Positions 19,262 to 34,784 of a stretch of 40,104 nt of DNA are shown here, piece by piece; positions within the stretch are counted from its first letter, which is position 1; every line of letters starts with the position of its first letter. Origin of the DNA: Candidatus Lambdaproteobacteria bacterium RIFOXYD2_FULL_50_16 (lineage in GTDB: Bacteria; SAR324; XYD2-FULL-50-16). Where the stretch lies: positions 1 to 40,104 of the forward strand of contig MFNE01000023.1 in NCBI GenBank assembly GCA_001783695.1. Reading direction: 5' to 3'. The notes beneath the pieces were generated by a model, which was given only the letters and a program-made list of their open reading frames with translations, did no database searches and was not told where the DNA came from. A program made the position numbers and the translations under genes.

Positions 19262-21169
19262 ATGGAGCAAATTACCCTGGGCACGGCGGGCCATATTGAC
19301 CATGGCAAATCGGCTCTGGTTTTGGCCCTAACCGGCCAGGACCCAGATCGTTGGGCCGAAGAAAAACGTCGTGGGATCACGTTAGATCTAGGCTTCGCCC
19401 ATTTTGAGCCCGTTCAAGGCAAGCGGGTTTCTCTGGTGGATGTCCCCGGTCACGAGGGATTGATCCACAACATGCTGGCCGGGGCCCAGGGGTTTAGTGG
19501 GGTTCTGTTGGTGGTGGCCGCCGACGAGGGGCCCATGCCCCAAACCATCGAGCATTTCCGTTTATTACAACTCTTAGGGATAAAGCGGGGTTTGGTTGTT
19601 TTAACCAAAACCGATTTAGCCGACCCTGATTTAATTGAACTTCTTAAACTGGAACTGGCTGAATTATTTCTAGGCAGCTTCATAGAATCCGCCCCTATTT
19701 TAGAGGTTTCCGCCAAAACCGGGGCTGGGATTGAGGCCTTAAAATCAGCCATAGTATCCCAGTTTTTCCCGGCCCCCAAACCAACGGGGCCCTTTCGACT
19801 GGCCATAGACCGCGCCTTTAGCCTAAAAGGGTTTGGCACGGTCGTTAGCGGCACCGCCCTTTCTGGGGATTGCACTCTCGAAAGCCCTTTATGGCTCTAC
19901 CCCCAAGCTAAGGCGGTTAAAATAAGGGGGATTCAATCCTCCGGGGCGGTTACCGAAGGGGCGCAAGCGGGAATGCGTCTAGCCTTTAACTTAAGTGGCA
20001 TAACGACCGAAGAGATCGAGCGAGGCATGCAACTCGCCGAACCGGGAAGCCTGTTAGTGACCCGCAGGATTGGGGTTAGGTTAGAACCCATTGAAGCTGA
20101 AGCATCACGAATCAAGCCCCGCAAATGGGTCCAGGCGTTTTGCCATGCGGCCAAAACCCGCGCCGAGATAATCCCTCTAGGGGCCTTTGCACCCAAGTTG
20201 GGGCCAACTTATTGTTTGCTTAAACTAGAACAACCTCTGGCACTGCGCCCTGGAGACCGGCTGGTGTTGCGCGGTGGTGAGCCCGAGCGAAGTCTAGCGG
20301 GGGCTCAGGTTTTGGCCCTGGATGGCCCCTTAGGCCGCCGGGATCGGCCACTTTTAGCTCAGTGGCTTTTAGACCTAGACCAAGGAGACGAGGGCAGGCG
20401 AATCTTGGCGGCCTTGGCCTTGGCTGGGCTCAAAGGACTAAATCAAACCGAGTTGGGTTTGCGGCTAGAACTATCTAAAAAGGCCCTGGAACGCCAGATT
20501 CAAACCTTACTGGCTAGTCAGGCTATTCTGGAGCCTGATAAAAACAGTAAACGGCTTTTCCACCCTGATCCTGCCAAACGGTTGATCCGCTTTTTCCAAA
20601 GCCAACTAGCCCACTTTCATCAGTCCCACCCTGAAGAGGCAGGTGCGCCTGCGGACTACTTTTATGGCAAGTCAGCACGTTTTTTAGAACCTCAATTGGT
20701 TAACGGTTTTTTAAGCTGGGCCGCTCGCCAAAATCTACTGGCCAAAACCGATAATTTCTATCATCTTATGGGCTTCCAGGGTGGCTTGAGCCCGGTTCAA
20801 AAACAGAAGATTGAGGCCGCTTTAGCCCAACTAGCCAGTAGCAGCCCCAACTGCCCCGGCCTGCACGGGTTAGCCGAGGATTTGGGGATAGAAAAATCGG
20901 CGCTTTTTGGGCTTTTGAAGATGGCGGAAAAAAAGGGGTGGGTAACCCAAGTGGGGCCTGAGCTTTTTTATCGATCTTCGGACTGCGAGGCGCTTTGGCA
21001 AACGCTTAAAGCATTTTTGGCCCAGCGGGGTCAGGTTACGGTTATTGAGTTCAAAGAATTGGCTGGGCTCAGCCGTAAAAATGCGGTCACCTTGTTAGAA
21101 TATTTCGACCAGAAGAAACTCACGTTCCGGGCGGACGACCACCGGGTAGCCTACGAAAGGGATTTATAA
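19262..21169 (+). CDS. selB: Selenocysteine-specific translation elongation factor SelB
   Basis: '[40 protein letters not shown]', '[16 protein letters not shown]', 'TKTDL', C-terminal winged-helix region. Confidence 0.95.
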
Positions 21170-21171
21170 CC

Positions 21172-24100
21172 ATGTCATTGGTGATCGAGGTTTCGAGTCA
21201 GTCGGTCTATATCGCCAAATATCAATTGGAGTTTCCCTTTGCGCCCTTGCCCGATCGCTTGGCCAAAGCGGCACTGGAAACCTACCAGATGCTTTCCCAA
21301 AGCCCCAAGGTTCAGTCCCAGAGTGGGAGGGAAGAGCGGGGGGAAGTGATTCGGCTTTTGCAATCTTTTGGCCACCAGTTATACCAAACCCTGATCCCCG
21401 AAGCCTTACGCCCTCGCCTCCCCAAAGAAGGGGCTCTGTTTATTCGTGCTAAAGACGAAAAGTCTAAAACCCTGCCCTACGAGCTTCTCTTTGATGGGGC
21501 TAGTTTTATCGCCCAGACCCAGGGCGTAATTAGGCTATTTGGAGCCCGAACTTTAGAGCCGGACCAACCCCAAAAACTCCCTCAAGATCGTCTTAAAATA
21601 ACCCTACTTAGCTACCGCCCAGACCAAGCTAGGTCCACCAGCCCTGGTTTTATGTTGCCCGTTGAACGCTTAGGCCAACTGGCGCAAAGTGGCCAGCGCC
21701 GTTTTTCCGCCCAGGTGGATGGCAACGCTGAATGGGGGCGGACCCTGTCCATGATTGAATCAGGACTAGATATCTTGCTTTTTACGGGATACGAGGACGA
21801 GGGACTTTGGGCAATTGGGGGGCAAAAACCCGAAGAAGCATTGCCCCGCTTGACTCGCGCATTAGAGATTGGCGTGAGGCGGGGGCTGCGACTGCTTATT
21901 TTGGCCAGCTCGCAACTTTTAGAGGGCTCATCGGGATTAGAAAGGTATGGCTACAAAGGGATTCCCGCGGTGATTAGCTTTGAAGGGCGTTTGGATACGG
22001 AACGCGCCCTGGAATATTTAGGGAGCCTTTGGAGCGGACTAAGTTTAGGCCAAACCCTTTTGCAGGCGCACCGCCACGGGGTCAATCAATTGCAAACCAG
22101 CCTAGGCTTGAGTTGGGATTGGTCTTGGGTGCGGCTTTCCATGCCCAAGGAGTTGGTGGACCATCCAAGGTTGGATTCACTACGAGCCTTCAGCCTCACC
22201 GCCGATCCCCCACCCATTTCTTCAGAGCCCAACCAAACGGCCTTGGTGCTTTCAGGGCGCCGATTTGCGGGCAACCTAGAGGTCTTGAGCCAACTTGAAA
22301 AAGCGCTAACCTCCGAGGGTGAACAGCGGATCGTTTGGCTTCGAAGTCTGCAAGGCCAGCACCAGGAAGAATACCTTTTAGAGTACTTTAGACGCCTCGC
22401 CCCCAAAGCTGATTTTTCGGTGGATATCTTTTACTATTACCGCTGGGGCTTCCATGAAGGGCAGCAAAAAAGCTTGTTGGACCGTGAGCTAGCCGACGAG
22501 TTTGGCTTTTTATGGGGAGACGAAAAAATTTCTGAGTTTTTCGATTTTTCCTTGGTGTCTTTAAAAACGGGGACCCATCCAGGGCACCGTTACCTTTGTG
22601 TTTATTTCCCGCCCGACCTCTTGGACCCTTTGTTCGAAGCTTGGCTTAAAGGGCGTCGGGCTTTGGGCTGGCGGGTTTTGCTTTTTAGCCAATATAGTTT
22701 TGTCACGGACCTGCCAACAGAGGTGATCAGCACCGACCGAACCAGCCTAGATGAGATTAAAAACGCCTTCGAAGACCGTTTACCCGAGTCTTGGGACGAA
22801 TTGTTAAAAACCCAAGTGCCGCCACAAATGCGCAACCATGCACTGCTAAGCCAAGCGGTAGCCAGTGGGGAGGAGCCCTTTACAGACCTGTTTAATTCCC
22901 CACTTGAGCCAGAGGCCCTTTGGAGTCAAAGCTCAGCCCTGGTTCAAGCAGGGCTTGGTGTAAGTGCCAAACGGTTGTTGTGTGGTTTGTATCTACTCAA
23001 GGTCAAATGGCACAAACCGGACCTGGAATTACTTTTTGGCCCCGAGTTAGATAAAGACCTAGAGCGACTCTTTGAGTTACATTTAGTGGAGCGCAACCTA
23101 GAAGGGAACCTATATTGGATGGCCGGGAACTTGGCGATACTGTATCGAAAATACAAGCTTTTGCCTCAAGACTTGTTGGTCAAAACCGGGCAGGAACTCT
23201 TGCAGAAGATTATTGGCAGCCTAGAGGCGTTGGAAACCGAGCCGAGCTTAGTAATAGCCGGATTCAGTCAGGTGGCCGCCGAAGTCGCTCACCTTGGTTC
23301 CCGCGAGACCGCGTTGCAACGCAACCTCCAATTCGCCAAAAAAATGGCCCCCGATTTGGGAAGCAAAGTGGGGATGTTATCACAAAACATCTTAACCAGC
23401 CTTGAGCTAGCCTTAGAAACCGGCTCTAGCCAAGCCTTAGAACGCTGTTTTTCTAGTATCTTGTCCATTTTTGATCACCTACCCTTAGAGGCCCAGACCT
23501 TAAGGCTTTATCAATGGCTGCTCCAGGCGGAAGAAGAGCGGCACAACTGGCCCCAAGTTTCGGCGCTCCAATGCCGTTTGGCGGCCATTCATGTTCGCCA
23601 GGGGGCCAAAGAGCGGGCCAAGGGGTTGCTGGTTTCAGCCACCCAGTTGGCGCTGGACTTGGGCAATCCCGCTGAGCGCAGCCATATTTTGGTTGAGATT
23701 GCGCTCTTACTCCTGGAAATCGGCGAGATGGAACAGTTACAAGATTTTTTAGGCGCGGCGCAGTTTCAACCAGAATACCTAAACCAAGAAACCTTGGCTC
23801 GGCTTTGGTTGATAGACGGGCACTTGCTGTACCACCACCAAGAACCCGGTCCCGCCCGCCGGGCTTTGGCCAAGGCCTACGAATACAAACATCCCTTTTT
23901 ATCAGACAGTCTTGCCGCCCAAACTGAATTAATCCTAGCTAAGTTGGCTCGCAAAACCGAACAAATGCCCGAAGCCGAAGCCCACTTGCGTGAGGCGGCC
24001 AAGCTCTTTGAAAAAGCAAAGCAGTGGGAGCGGGCTGCCGCAATCCATGACGAGCTTGTGGCGCATAAAGAATCCCAAAACCGCCCTGGTTCGACCATTG

Positions 24101-24282
24101 AACACCTTGAATGGCTTTACCGCTACAACTGCAAAGAAGACCATTTAGACCGAGCCCGCAAGATCGCCCTTAAATTAGGCGGGCTTTATTATAACGCGGG
24201 CGACAAAACACGTTCAACCGAGTACTATGGCAAGGCCCAATCCGAAGCAATCGGCCCCAACCCCAACCATACCCCGCCATGA
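21172..24282 (+). CDS. Large CHAT-like protein with degenerate catalytic residues and C-terminal TPR-like repeats
   Basis: 'LPYELLFDGASFIAQTQGVIRLFG', 'LDILLFTGYEDEGLW' (usual GH replaced by GY), 'LLILASSQL' (usual SAC replaced by ASS), 'VISFEGRLDTERALEYLGSLWSGLSLGQTLLQAHR'; helical repeats in the C-terminal half. Confidence 0.7.
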   Translation: MSLVIEVSSQSVYIAKYQLEFPFAPLPDRLAKAALETYQMLSQSPKVQSQSGREERGEVIRLLQSFGHQLYQTLIPEALRPRLPKEGALFIRAKDEKSKTLPYELLFDGASFIAQTQGVIRLFGARTLEPDQPQKLPQDRLKITLLSYRPDQARSTSPGFMLPVERLGQLAQSGQRRFSAQVDGNAEWGRTLSMIESGLDILLFTGYEDEGLWAIGGQKPEEALPRLTRALEIGVRRGLRLLILASSQLLEGSSGLERYGYKGIPAVISFEGRLDTERALEYLGSLWSGLSLGQTLLQAHRHGVNQLQTSLGLSWDWSWVRLSMPKELVDHPRLDSLRAFSLTADPPPISSEPNQTALVLSGRRFAGNLEVLSQLEKALTSEGEQRIVWLRSLQGQHQEEYLLEYFRRLAPKADFSVDIFYYYRWGFHEGQQKSLLDRELADEFGFLWGDEKISEFFDFSLVSLKTGTHPGHRYLCVYFPPDLLDPLFEAWLKGRRALGWRVLLFSQYSFVTDLPTEVISTDRTSLDEIKNAFEDRLPESWDELLKTQVPPQMRNHALLSQAVASGEEPFTDLFNSPLEPEALWSQSSALVQAGLGVSAKRLLCGLYLLKVKWHKPDLELLFGPELDKDLERLFELHLVERNLEGNLYWMAGNLAILYRKYKLLPQDLLVKTGQELLQKIIGSLEALETEPSLVIAGFSQVAAEVAHLGSRETALQRNLQFAKKMAPDLGSKVGMLSQNILTSLELALETGSSQALERCFSSILSIFDHLPLEAQTLRLYQWLLQAEEERHNWPQVSALQCRLAAIHVRQGAKERAKGLLVSATQLALDLGNPAERSHILVEIALLLLEIGEMEQLQDFLGAAQFQPEYLNQETLARLWLIDGHLLYHHQEPGPARRALAKAYEYKHPFLSDSLAAQTELILAKLARKTEQMPEAEAHLREAAKLFEKAKQWERAAAIHDELVAHKESQNRPGSTIEHLEWLYRYNCKEDHLDRARKIALKLGGLYYNAGDKTRSTEYYGKAQSEAIGPNPNHTPP

Positions 24283-26508: not shown

Positions 26509-28965
26509 CTAGTCGATCTCCTCTAACTCCACCGGTTTGAAGAGGCGCAGCGTCAGGCTATTGGTGAGGACCGAGACCGAGGAGAGGGCCATGGCCAAGG
26601 CGGCGATCATGGGGCTTAGAGCGGGGCCGCCGAAGGGGACCAAGATGCCCGCAGCGAAGGGAATACCCAGACTGTTGTAACAAAAGGCCCAGAAGAGGTT
26701 TTGTTTGATTTTGGTTAAGGTCTGGCGGGCGAGGCTTAAAGCGGTCAAGAGCCCGGTTAGTTGGTCTTTGACTAAGATAAAATCAGCCGACTGCACCGCC
26801 ACCTCTGCCCCGGAACCAATAGCCACCCCTAAATCGGCTTGCACCAAGGCGGGGGCGTCGTTGATCCCGTCGCCAACCATGGCCACCCGAAGCCCTTTGG
26901 CCTGCGCCTGTTTGATCCATTCTAATTTTTGCCCTGGCAAAAGACCGGCCCCCACCTGTTTGATCCCCAGTTTTTGGGCAATCGCTGCCGCCACTAAGGG
27001 GTGGTCGCCGGTTAACATAACGGGCTCGATCCCTTGGGCCATAAGCTGGGCCATCACTAAGGCGGCTTCGGGCTTGACCGGATCGGCGACACCTAGGATG
27101 CCTAAGATTTGCCCGCCTAAACTGACATAAATCGGCGTGATCCCCGCTTCCCCAAGCTTCAAGCCTTCAGCCGGTTCAGCCCCTTGGCCAGCAAAACCAA
27201 AGTGACCGACTTTTAAGGTTTGGCCTTGGTATTGGGCTTGGACTCCCAAACTCTTGACCATTTCTACGTTATCTAGCGCCAAGGGGGCGATCTGGGCCTG
27301 TTCGGCGGCTAGGCATATCGCCTTGGCGATAAGGTGTTCGCTTTGCCGCTCGGCGCCAGCAGCCAAGGCCAGCAACCCATCCCGATCTCCGTTTATGACT
27401 AGGGTTTCTAAAAGCTCTGGTTTACCGCGAGTCAAGGTGCCGGTTTTATCAAACATAATCTGGTCCAACTTCGCCGAATTTTCTAGTGACTCGCCGCCTT
27501 TAACTAAAATCCCCAACGCAGCTCCTCGGCCCACCCCCACCAAGATAGCGGTCGGTGTGGCCAGCCCCAAGGCGCAAGGGCAGGCGATGACCAAAACCGC
27601 CACAAAGACCTGCAACCCAAAGGTAAAGTCACCGCCCAAAATCCACCAGCCCAACCCAGCCAAGGTCGCTAAAACCATCACCACCGGCACAAACACCCCC
27701 GAAATCTGGTCTGCCAGCCGAGCGACCGGGGCCTTTTGGGCGTTGGCGTCTTCGACTAACTTGATGATCTGGGCCAAGGTGGAGTTTTCCGCAGTTTTAG
27801 TGACCTCGATCTGGATCGGTTGGCCCTGGTTGAGGCTAGCCCCGGCGACCGGGTCGCCGACGCCTAATTCAACGGGCATGGACTCACCGGTCAAAAAGGA
27901 TTGGTCCAGTGCGGTCTGGCCTTCTAAAATCACCCCGTCCAAGGGCACCCGTTCGCCAATTTTGACTAAAAGCCGGTCGCCGGGCATCACCTCTTCAATG
28001 GGTAGTAGTGTTTCTCGGCCTTTGTCGTCGATCAGCCGGGCGTCGCTAGGGCGCAGTTTCAAAAGCGCCTTCATCGCCTCGGCGGACTTTTGTTTGGCCC
28101 CGGACTCTAAAAATTTGCCCATCAAAATCAAGGTCAAGATCACGGCGGTGGACTCAAAGTAGAGCATATGAAACCCCCTCGAATCGCCGCCAAGAACCAG
28201 CGCCAAACCCCATAGGCTATGGCCAAAGCTGGCCAGTGTGCCAATGGCGATTAACGAATCCATGTTGGGGCCTAGGTGGTAAAGCGCTTTTAATCCGCGC
28301 TGATAAAATTGGCGGCCTAACCCCATTACCGGCAGGCATAAAAGCAGCTGGGTCAAAACAAAGGTTTGGGGGCTGTAATGGGGGCTGACAAATTCGGGAA
28401 GTTTTAAGCCCACCATCTCGCCCATGGCGACTATTACCAAAGGCAGACTCAGGGCCAAGCTGCCTATAAATTTGTTTTTTAAGGCCAACCGCTCCTTTTC
28501 CTTGGCCAAGCTGTGGGCCAAGTCATCTGAGTTGGCTTGCATCTCTTTTAGGGGGTAGCCCAAGGCCTCCGCCTTTTCTTTGATCTGGGCCGATTTGAGT
28601 TTGGTTGGGTCAAAGCGGAGCGCCGCCTTTTCAGTGCTAAGATTAACACTGGCCTTGACCATGCCTTCCAGTTCGCTAAGGCCCTTTTCCAAGTTCGCCG
28701 AGCAACTAGCGCAACTCATTCCCTCCACCCGAAAAACCAGATTGACCAACTTAACCGGCTCCTTGGCCGGATAGCCCCCCTCGGTGACCGCTTGGATCAC
28801 TTGGTCCAACGCCAGTTGGGATTCGTCGTAGGTCAGGCTTAATTGTTCGGTCAATAGGTTCACCGCCGCCCGCTCGACCCCAGGCAGGCCCCGGACAATG
28901 CCCTCAACCCGGGCCGAGCAAGAGGCGCAACTCATCTCGCTTACCTCTAAGATCGCTTCTTTCAT
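26509..28965 (-). CDS. copA: Copper-translocating P-type ATPase CopA
   Basis: Two HMA domains (MSCASCSA x2), 'VIACPCALGLATPTA', 'FDKTGTLT', 'GDGINDAPAL'. Confidence 0.96.
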   Translation of the reverse strand: MKEAILEVSEMSCASCSARVEGIVRGLPGVERAAVNLLTEQLSLTYDESQLALDQVIQAVTEGGYPAKEPVKLVNLVFRVEGMSCASCSANLEKGLSELEGMVKASVNLSTEKAALRFDPTKLKSAQIKEKAEALGYPLKEMQANSDDLAHSLAKEKERLALKNKFIGSLALSLPLVIVAMGEMVGLKLPEFVSPHYSPQTFVLTQLLLCLPVMGLGRQFYQRGLKALYHLGPNMDSLIAIGTLASFGHSLWGLALVLGGDSRGFHMLYFESTAVILTLILMGKFLESGAKQKSAEAMKALLKLRPSDARLIDDKGRETLLPIEEVMPGDRLLVKIGERVPLDGVILEGQTALDQSFLTGESMPVELGVGDPVAGASLNQGQPIQIEVTKTAENSTLAQIIKLVEDANAQKAPVARLADQISGVFVPVVMVLATLAGLGWWILGGDFTFGLQVFVAVLVIACPCALGLATPTAILVGVGRGAALGILVKGGESLENSAKLDQIMFDKTGTLTRGKPELLETLVINGDRDGLLALAAGAERQSEHLIAKAICLAAEQAQIAPLALDNVEMVKSLGVQAQYQGQTLKVGHFGFAGQGAEPAEGLKLGEAGITPIYVSLGGQILGILGVADPVKPEAALVMAQLMAQGIEPVMLTGDHPLVAAAIAQKLGIKQVGAGLLPGQKLEWIKQAQAKGLRVAMVGDGINDAPALVQADLGVAIGSGAEVAVQSADFILVKDQLTGLLTALSLARQTLTKIKQNLFWAFCYNSLGIPFAAGILVPFGGPALSPMIAALAMALSSVSVLTNSLTLRLFKPVELEEID

Positions 28966-28986
28966 GGCGGTGACCTTTGTTTTCGG

Positions 28987-29193
28987 TTATCCCAATTGGG
29001 CCGGGTAACCGGCTTGGGTAATCTTTTGGGCTAATTGATTTAGATCGGGATCTCCTTCAAAACCTAGTTCCAAAAGCCCGGTTTCAAAGCTGGCCTTTGC
29101 TTCGGCCAACCCGAATTCCTTGGCTATGCCCTCCACTTTAGAGGTACAGCCGCCACACTTCATCTTTTCTACTTTTAAGGTCGCGTTTTTCAT
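28987..29193 (-). CDS. CopZ-like heavy-metal-associated (HMA) chaperone
   Basis: 'KVEKMKCGGCTSKVEG' CxxC HMA motif; between copA and csoR. Confidence 0.88.
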   Translation of the reverse strand: MKNATLKVEKMKCGGCTSKVEGIAKEFGLAEAKASFETGLLELGFEGDPDLNQLAQKITQAGYPAQLG

Positions 29194-29197
29194 CGGT

Positions 29198-29464
29198 TCA
29201 CCGGGGATAGGAGATTAGTTTCATGATCTCTTCGATTTTTTGCTCAAACTCGCCCCCCTCTGCTTGGGCAGCATCGTTAACGCAGTGGCGCAAGTGCCCT
29301 TCTAAAACCCCCAACTCAATCTGCTCCAGCGCCGACTTGGCCGCCTTGATTTGAGTCAAGATGTCCACGCAGTAGCGCCGTTCTTCGATCATCCGGGCAA
29401 TCCCTTTGATCTGCCCTTCGATTTTATTGAGCCGTTTGAGTTGGTCTTGGTGATTAGGGAACAT
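29198..29464 (-). CDS. csoR: CsoR-family copper-sensing repressor
   Basis: 'LKRLNKIEGQIKGIARMIEERRYCVDILTQIKAAKSAL...EGHLRHCV' with the C-H-C ligand pattern. Confidence 0.93.
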   Translation of the reverse strand: MFPNHQDQLKRLNKIEGQIKGIARMIEERRYCVDILTQIKAAKSALEQIELGVLEGHLRHCVNDAAQAEGGEFEQKIEEIMKLISYPR

Positions 29465-29869: not shown

Positions 29870-29932
29870 CCATCCCCCCCTTTATAGAGCGGATGATTAG
29901 TTTCGTAAAGGGTTGGGATTGGATTTATAAAA

Positions 29933-29958
29933 AAAGAGGCCCTGAACAGGGCCTCTTT
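29933..29958 (-). terminator. Rho-independent terminator of the HesB-like selenoprotein gene
   Basis: Minus strand AAAGAGGCCCTGTTCAGGGCCTCTTTTTTT, 5 nt after the TAG stop. Confidence 0.85.
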
Positions 29959-29962
29959 CGGG

Positions 29963-30256
29963 CTAGCAGCTACGACCCATCTTGGGCTGAAGTGAAAATC
30001 CCTTGTAAAAACCAGAACGACGAAAGTCGATTATACTGGGCTCCAGGTAGGGAGCCGCTTTGGGGTCGATTGCTATGGGCACCTGATCAACTATAAGTTT
30101 CTGGTCCCCTTCTCGCGTCTCATCCAGAGACATGCCAAATCTGGGGCCCCCTCAGCCAAAGCCTTCGATCTTAACTCGCACCGCCATGCCGGCTTTAGTG
30201 CTTAGAATTTCTTGTAGTTCCGATTTTGCAGAAGCGGTCAACTCGATTAGGGCCAT
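29963..30256 (-). CDS. HesB/IscA-like selenoprotein (UGA-encoded Sec at codon 35); absent from the ORF track
   Basis: Minus-strand reading: MALIELTASAKSELQEILSTKAGMAVRVKIEGFG-U-GGPRFGMSLDETREGDQKLIVDQVPIAIDPKAAPYLEPSIIDFRRSGFYKGFSLQPKMGRSC-stop; AGGAG-5nt-ATG; TGA at 30154..30152 aligns with the conserved A-type Cys35; selB present in window. Confidence 0.9.
30124..30154 (-). promoter_or_regulatory. Candidate bacterial SECIS element
   Basis: After UGA: GGGGGCC-CCAGA-UUUGGCAUGUC-UCUGG; 5-bp stem starting 8 nt after the UGA, loop with GG ~16-17 nt downstream. Confidence 0.6.
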
Positions 30257-30350
30257 AGGGTCTCCTGTTTGGTTATGACTTAACTATATATTAATAATTG
30301 AATATTATTTCGTCAAGCAGGAAAAGCGGCTATCCCCCCAAGGTCTGGGG

Positions 30351-34229: not shown

Positions 34230-34343
34230 AAATACCACTATAGGCAACTTTGTGGTTAGCCCTTGTGAAGGCGGGCTGATAAGGCTATTCTTCTTAGGAA
34301 AAAATTGCGGTGTCACCTATTAAACTTTGATTCGAAACTTGCT

Positions 34344-34784
34344 ATGCGTTTTAAAAAACAATCGGATTACGCCCTTCGAGTGCTGATGTACTTAGCAACC
34401 GTTCAGGGAGATTCCACCACCATAAAAGAAATTGCCCAAAGTTTTGGTATCTCTCAAAATCATTTGATGAAAGTGGTCCAAAGCCTTCGTCAGTCTGGCT
34501 TTGTTAAAACCCAAAGGGGGAACAAAGGGGGGATTCGCTTAGGCCAACCGGCAGAGCAGATTAAAATTGGCCAAGTCTTACGTAAAGTGGGAGAGCAAAA
34601 TGAATTGGCCGAATGTTTTATTCAGGTCGGACAATGTAAGATCGATCGGATTTGCCAGCTTAAACCCGCCTTGGCAAAAGCCAACGACGCCTTTTTTGAG
34701 GTGTTAGATGGTTACAGTCTGGCAGATATCCTAGGCTCACCTAGAGCCATGTCTGATCTTTTGCGTCTTGGCACTAGAGTTTAA
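34344..34784 (+). CDS. nsrR: Rrf2-family regulator, NsrR-like
   Basis: 'MRFKKQSDYALRVLMYLA', 'ISQNHLMKVVQSLRQSGFVKTQRGNKGGIRLGQPAEQIKIGQVLR', three Cys in 'ECFIQVGQCKIDRICQLKPAL'. Confidence 0.85.
   Translation: MRFKKQSDYALRVLMYLATVQGDSTTIKEIAQSFGISQNHLMKVVQSLRQSGFVKTQRGNKGGIRLGQPAEQIKIGQVLRKVGEQNELAECFIQVGQCKIDRICQLKPALAKANDAFFEVLDGYSLADILGSPRAMSDLLRLGTRV

Follow-up and report, generated by a model that had tools for sequence, protein, structure and literature searches.

A probable selenocysteine-containing HesB/IscA-like gene, truncated by standard ORF calling, in a Lambdaproteobacteria genome

HesB-like selenoproteins had been catalogued by 2005-2006 (PMC1794560, PMC1242214, PMC1088965) and carry a UxGP motif (PMC13188914). 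One member, from Methanococcus maripaludis, was confirmed by mutagenesis and 75Se labelling, and disruption of hesB in this organism left nitrogen fixation unimpaired (PMC11097638). According to published rules, a bacterial SECIS element (bSECIS) has a loop of 3-9 nt, a stem of 4-16 bp and a G within the first two loop positions, lies 16-37 nt from the UGA and folds with a minimum free energy of -7.5 kcal/mol or lower (PMC13188914).

We analysed a 40,104-nt stretch of contig MFNE01000023.1 from Candidatus Lambdaproteobacteria bacterium RIFOXYD2_FULL_50_16, hereafter called the window (Table 1). A first-pass annotation had proposed that a gene on its minus strand becomes complete when a single in-frame TGA is read as selenocysteine (Sec), and we reproduced both its coordinates and its translation: the frame runs from ATG to TAG and yields MALIELTASAKSELQEILSTKAGMAVRVKIEGFG-U-GGPRFGMSLDE...MGRSC (97 aa). 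Under translation table 11, all that is left of this frame is a stub of 34 codons and a fragment of 56 codons starting at an internal ATG (M42-C97), and ORF calling with this table returned nothing of at least 60 aa on the minus strand at the locus. ORF callers therefore miss the gene, as had been claimed for a plain caller, and it represents a well-supported Sec gene added where automatic annotation truncates. The well-spaced AGGAG ribosome-binding site and the terminator described earlier were likewise found, and because it has these two signals of its own, the gene looks monocistronic, forming a single-gene unit. A sigma-70-like promoter is only a weak candidate; two such sites were found in the region, with 1.0 expected by chance. 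G+C content by codon position (0.57/0.44/0.52) was similar to that of the window genes (0.57/0.39/0.57).

Table 1. Features of the Sec-HesB locus and the selB gene in the window
Feature	Coordinates	Strand	Details
Sec-HesB gene	29963..30256	-	97 codons plus TAG; PF01521, 33.6 bits; TGA also present at this codon in homologs
In-frame TGA, predicted Sec, residue 35	30152..30154	-	aligned to the conserved A-type Cys
Predicted bacterial SECIS hairpin	30116..30132	-	6-bp stem UGUCUC/GAGACG; apical loop UGGAU (30126-30122)
AGGAG ribosome-binding site	30262..30266	-	spacer to ATG of 5 nt
Intrinsic terminator	29926..29959	-	12-bp hairpin, then U run; fold -19.9 kcal/mol
Sigma-70-like promoter (weak evidence)	30288..30316	-	TTGACG-17-TAATAT; 9/12 matches
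selB, Sec-specific elongation factor	19262..21169	+	635 aa; GTP_EFTU, SelB-wing_3, Beta-barrel_SelB, SelB-wing_2; not adjacent to the Sec-HesB gene

With the TGA read as Cys, residues 4-83 matched PF01521 (Fe-S_biosyn) across this codon, scoring 33.6 bits against a gathering score of 26.3. The best NCBIfam match was NF038090 (IscA_HesB_Se) at 53.5 bits, below its cut-off of 85, and TIGR01911 (HesB_rel_seleno) gave 42.9 bits, below 66.35; these trusted cut-offs are thresholds for naming rather than biological features, and other Sec relatives, scored singly, also fell below those of the Sec-HesB models. Since it lies under both, the predicted protein, judged by its sequence, belongs to a divergent branch, largely of UxGP type, within the known HesB-like selenoprotein family. 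Current NCBIfam models miss this branch, which is present in several phyla. An AlphaFold2 model computed from 16 sequences reached a pLDDT of 86, with the C-terminal tail as its least certain part (block mean pLDDT 65); its best PDB match was E. coli IscA (1r94, E 2.6e-7), and SufA was also among the top matches. Together, the Pfam score above gathering, the IscA fold and the TGA-bearing homologs described below support the proposed identity as a Sec-containing HesB/IscA-like protein.

Scanning 84,980 genomes with this one protein yielded just one relative, and we therefore turned to whole-genome searches. In a set of 58 related genomes, every one of the closest homologs, which come from the same family and class, contained exactly one TGA, located in the U35 column, and the frame on either side of it was open; within the class, 16 homologous genes had TGA in this column. 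So did relatives from further families and phyla (Natronincola sp., G392, G663, G418, G561 and G488), and in the phylum to which G561 belongs, eight genes had it as well. A TIGR01911 search in one unrelated phylum returned only matches without a stop, none above the cut-off. About 20 A-type homologs, in turn, had Cys at this position, and in IscA-type PDB chains the residue aligned with position 35 was the conserved Cys. The placement of Sec at the conserved Cys35 thus agreed with both lines of comparison, and the suggested search for Cys or Sec at codon 35 of homologs found TGA in the Sec relatives and Cys in the A-type proteins. In a tree built, like the alignment, from a sample of the family, 20 Sec rows were separated from all 21 Cys rows and one Sec row (L090), with a split support of 96/86. 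A lone TGA in a small ORF could also arise if a TGC or TGT codon of a Cys-type HesB gene had changed to TGA, in a pseudogene or through a sequencing error. This is very improbable here: arguing against it are the same-column TGA in 16 same-class genes and in further families and phyla, the unbroken frame before and after this codon, and the covarying SECIS described next, and the recurrence of TGA at codon 35 in independent genomes refutes it.

The predicted SECIS hairpin agreed with every published bSECIS rule, with a loop of 5 nt starting 25 nt after the UGA, a stem of 6 bp, GG at loop positions 2-3 and an energy of -10.9 to -20.6 kcal/mol, depending on the stretch folded. Judged from the window sequence by itself, the hairpin was only modestly unusual (fold z -0.95), and 2.6% of synonymous recodings reached an equal stem length. 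As single-sequence folding was unconvincing, we used a comparative test on 17 Sec genes, namely the window gene, 15 from the same class and that of Natronincola. All 17 showed a hairpin at equal distance from the UGA with the loop UGGAU or UGGAC. RNAalifold identified six pairs, three of them with compensatory changes, and the covariation score was 0.519 compared to 0.228 after shuffling (0/500 shuffles reached the observed value), with slid controls at 0.157 or below. The mean stem length was 6.2 bp versus 1.8 bp in synonymous recodings of the same proteins, none of 2000 being as high, and Cys homologs formed a stem of 0-3 bp at this position. To give one example, a Val codon (GTT) before Leu-Asp-Glu was accompanied by GAA for Glu, and Ala, Ser or Thr (xCT) by GAG, so that the pair was kept. 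The strength of the evidence for this predicted SECIS is the cross-gene comparison, not the window hairpin alone. In genes from the phylum of G561, the RNA downstream of the UGA looked differently folded from the window-type SECIS, a difference to be expected if the shape of a SECIS depends on the local SelB.

The source genome assembly (97.9% complete, 54 contigs) contains selA (473.6 bits, cut-off 267.9), selD (355.2 bits) and a tRNA-Sec with anticodon TCA, so that a genome check for selA, selC and selD, proposed at first pass, found all three components. The selB gene, reported earlier from the same window, was identified there by GTP_EFTU and SelB winged-helix domains. The selD gene (L003, contig C46 of G000) is itself a selenoprotein gene, its own catalytic position being encoded by an in-frame TGA (CGUAAK). 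Directly 3' of selB lies a 1036-residue ORF (21172-24282, plus strand) with no Pfam match at E 0.001. The frame would be equally open whatever residue the TGA gave, as under an alternative code with TGA as an ordinary amino acid or under general read-through. We rejected this explanation as having a negligible probability, given that TGA is the ordinary stop of 6 of the 29 main genes of the window, that the genome holds the full Sec machinery, that A-type homologs have Cys at this position and that a SECIS is present. Instead, the TGA would be decoded as Sec by SelB and the Sec-tRNA, together with the hairpin that closely follows the UGA, and the gene is almost certainly a genuine selenoprotein gene. 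The finding goes beyond chance because the PF01521 match across the TGA, the conserved TGA and the covarying SECIS coincide. Overall, the best explanation, and a highly probable one, is a Sec-decoded A-type selenoprotein encoded as a single-gene unit and belonging to a divergent, single-Cys HesB-like branch; we infer that the gene is expressed.

The first-pass annotation had further described this copy as lacking the C-terminal CxC pair and ending in a single Cys. This is correct, but not peculiar to the copy: whether from the same class or from another phylum, almost every UxGP relative found lacks a CxC and finishes with C, CC or CY (GGNC, YAC, SRC, GTC, GSC, SCC, GGSC, YDC), the exceptions being L029, with no Cys, and L090, with several Cys. 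The single terminal Cys is therefore a branch-wide trait, and the altered metal or redox chemistry proposed for the copy is plausible as a putative property of the single-Cys branch as a whole. The source genome holds a separate Cys A-type protein ending in CGCG (contig C6), which presumably carries out the canonical CxC function.

Four further Sec A-type proteins (L016, L032, L034 and L035, from G007, G008, G006 and G009) make up a sub-branch in which GxGUKGS replaces UxGP, with a UTGI variant in L036 (G004). This UKGS-type sub-branch falls outside the published UxGP motif; its members have no C-terminal Cys, most end in PWFxGF, and the SECIS hairpin is at the same place. G004 harbours four Sec-HesB paralogs (L011, L030, L031 and L036, on contigs C102 and C116), three of them on one contig. 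HesB-like selenoproteins had been called known but rare in the annotation; the former holds, the latter only loosely, as several relatives contain two to four copies.

Upstream of the Sec-HesB gene lie a gene for an HPP-family membrane protein and a cytochrome oxidase/SCO cluster; downstream of it lie a tRNA-Leu and a copper ATPase/metal-repressor cluster. In the latter, a copper ATPase with two heavy-metal domains, a small heavy-metal-associated protein and a metal-sensitive repressor stand in a row (26509-29464, minus strand). A regulator with three Cys that appears Rrf2/NsrR-like by eye (34305-34784, plus strand) is located near the cytochrome oxidase genes. The neighbours do concern copper and haem-copper oxidase, yet they say little on function, since the gene looks monocistronic. 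In relatives, the gene neighbourhoods revealed no common partner beyond one genus and none pointing to function. In that one related genus, the Sec-HesB gene (L010, L013, L014) is situated between sigma-54 activator and pyridine-nucleotide disulfide oxidoreductase genes on the same strand.

In the functional reading that we favour, Sec35 and the terminal Cys97, the latter on a flexible tail, would bind a metal or Fe-S species or form a reversible selenenylsulfide, and the protein would act in redox reactions or metal trafficking, separately from the house-keeping Cys A-type carrier encoded elsewhere in the genome. We give this assignment about an even chance of being right, and consider metal or Fe-S binding and redox activity at the site about equally probable. 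Were the protein an ordinary Fe-S scaffold or carrier like IscA and SufA, with Sec merely replacing Cys35, this would suit the shared fold, the Sec at a ligand position and the homology to an Fe-S assembly family; however, the protein lacks the CxC from which IscA and SufA draw their other ligands, the genome has its separate canonical A-type protein and nitrogen fixation in M. maripaludis was not impaired when hesB was disrupted (PMC11097638), which makes such a role unlikely. Somewhat doubtful, though a serious possibility, is a thiol/selenol redox enzyme that uses a Sec35-Cys97 selenenylsulfide and has no metal role: Sec is typical of redox sites, the single terminal Cys is conserved in the UxGP branch and the oxidoreductase gene adjoins the Sec gene in three relatives, but the UKGS sister branch keeps Sec without a terminal Cys, and the reductase neighbour is confined to one genus and absent at the window locus. 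More speculatively, and in our view quite unlikely, the window gene and its relatives could form a separate Sec-only A-type lineage (with a single terminal Cys, or none in the UKGS sub-branch) that left Fe-S carriage for selenium-dependent redox or metal sensing, with up to four copies in some genomes. This compact, multi-copy branch with Sec and one Cys is a convenient test object for whether HesB-like selenoproteins bear metal clusters or perform redox chemistry. The value of the discovery is moderate.

Among described proteins of this fold, Allochromatium vinosum DsrR (2k4z) resembles the structure model (Foldseek E 2.5e-4), but belongs to another sequence family and has no Sec; DsrR is an A-type homolog without the set of conserved Cys residues and is not known to act as a carrier. 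The A-type Fe-S carriers IscA, SufA and ErpA share the fold, and their Cys35 aligns with the predicted Sec. They differ from the window protein in having Cys at this position, in the SG or AG found where the window protein has GP after Sec+1, and in their C-terminal CxC: where a canonical carrier combines Cys35 with this pair, the window protein has U35 and one terminal Cys, Cys97, only. Closest are the HesB-like selenoproteins (TIGR01911, NF038090), with which it shares the A-type fold, a length of about 100 aa, Sec at the conserved Cys, a SECIS just downstream and the UxGP motif, here UGGP, while its sub-cut-off scores and an identity of about 35-43% to its nearest homologs set it apart.
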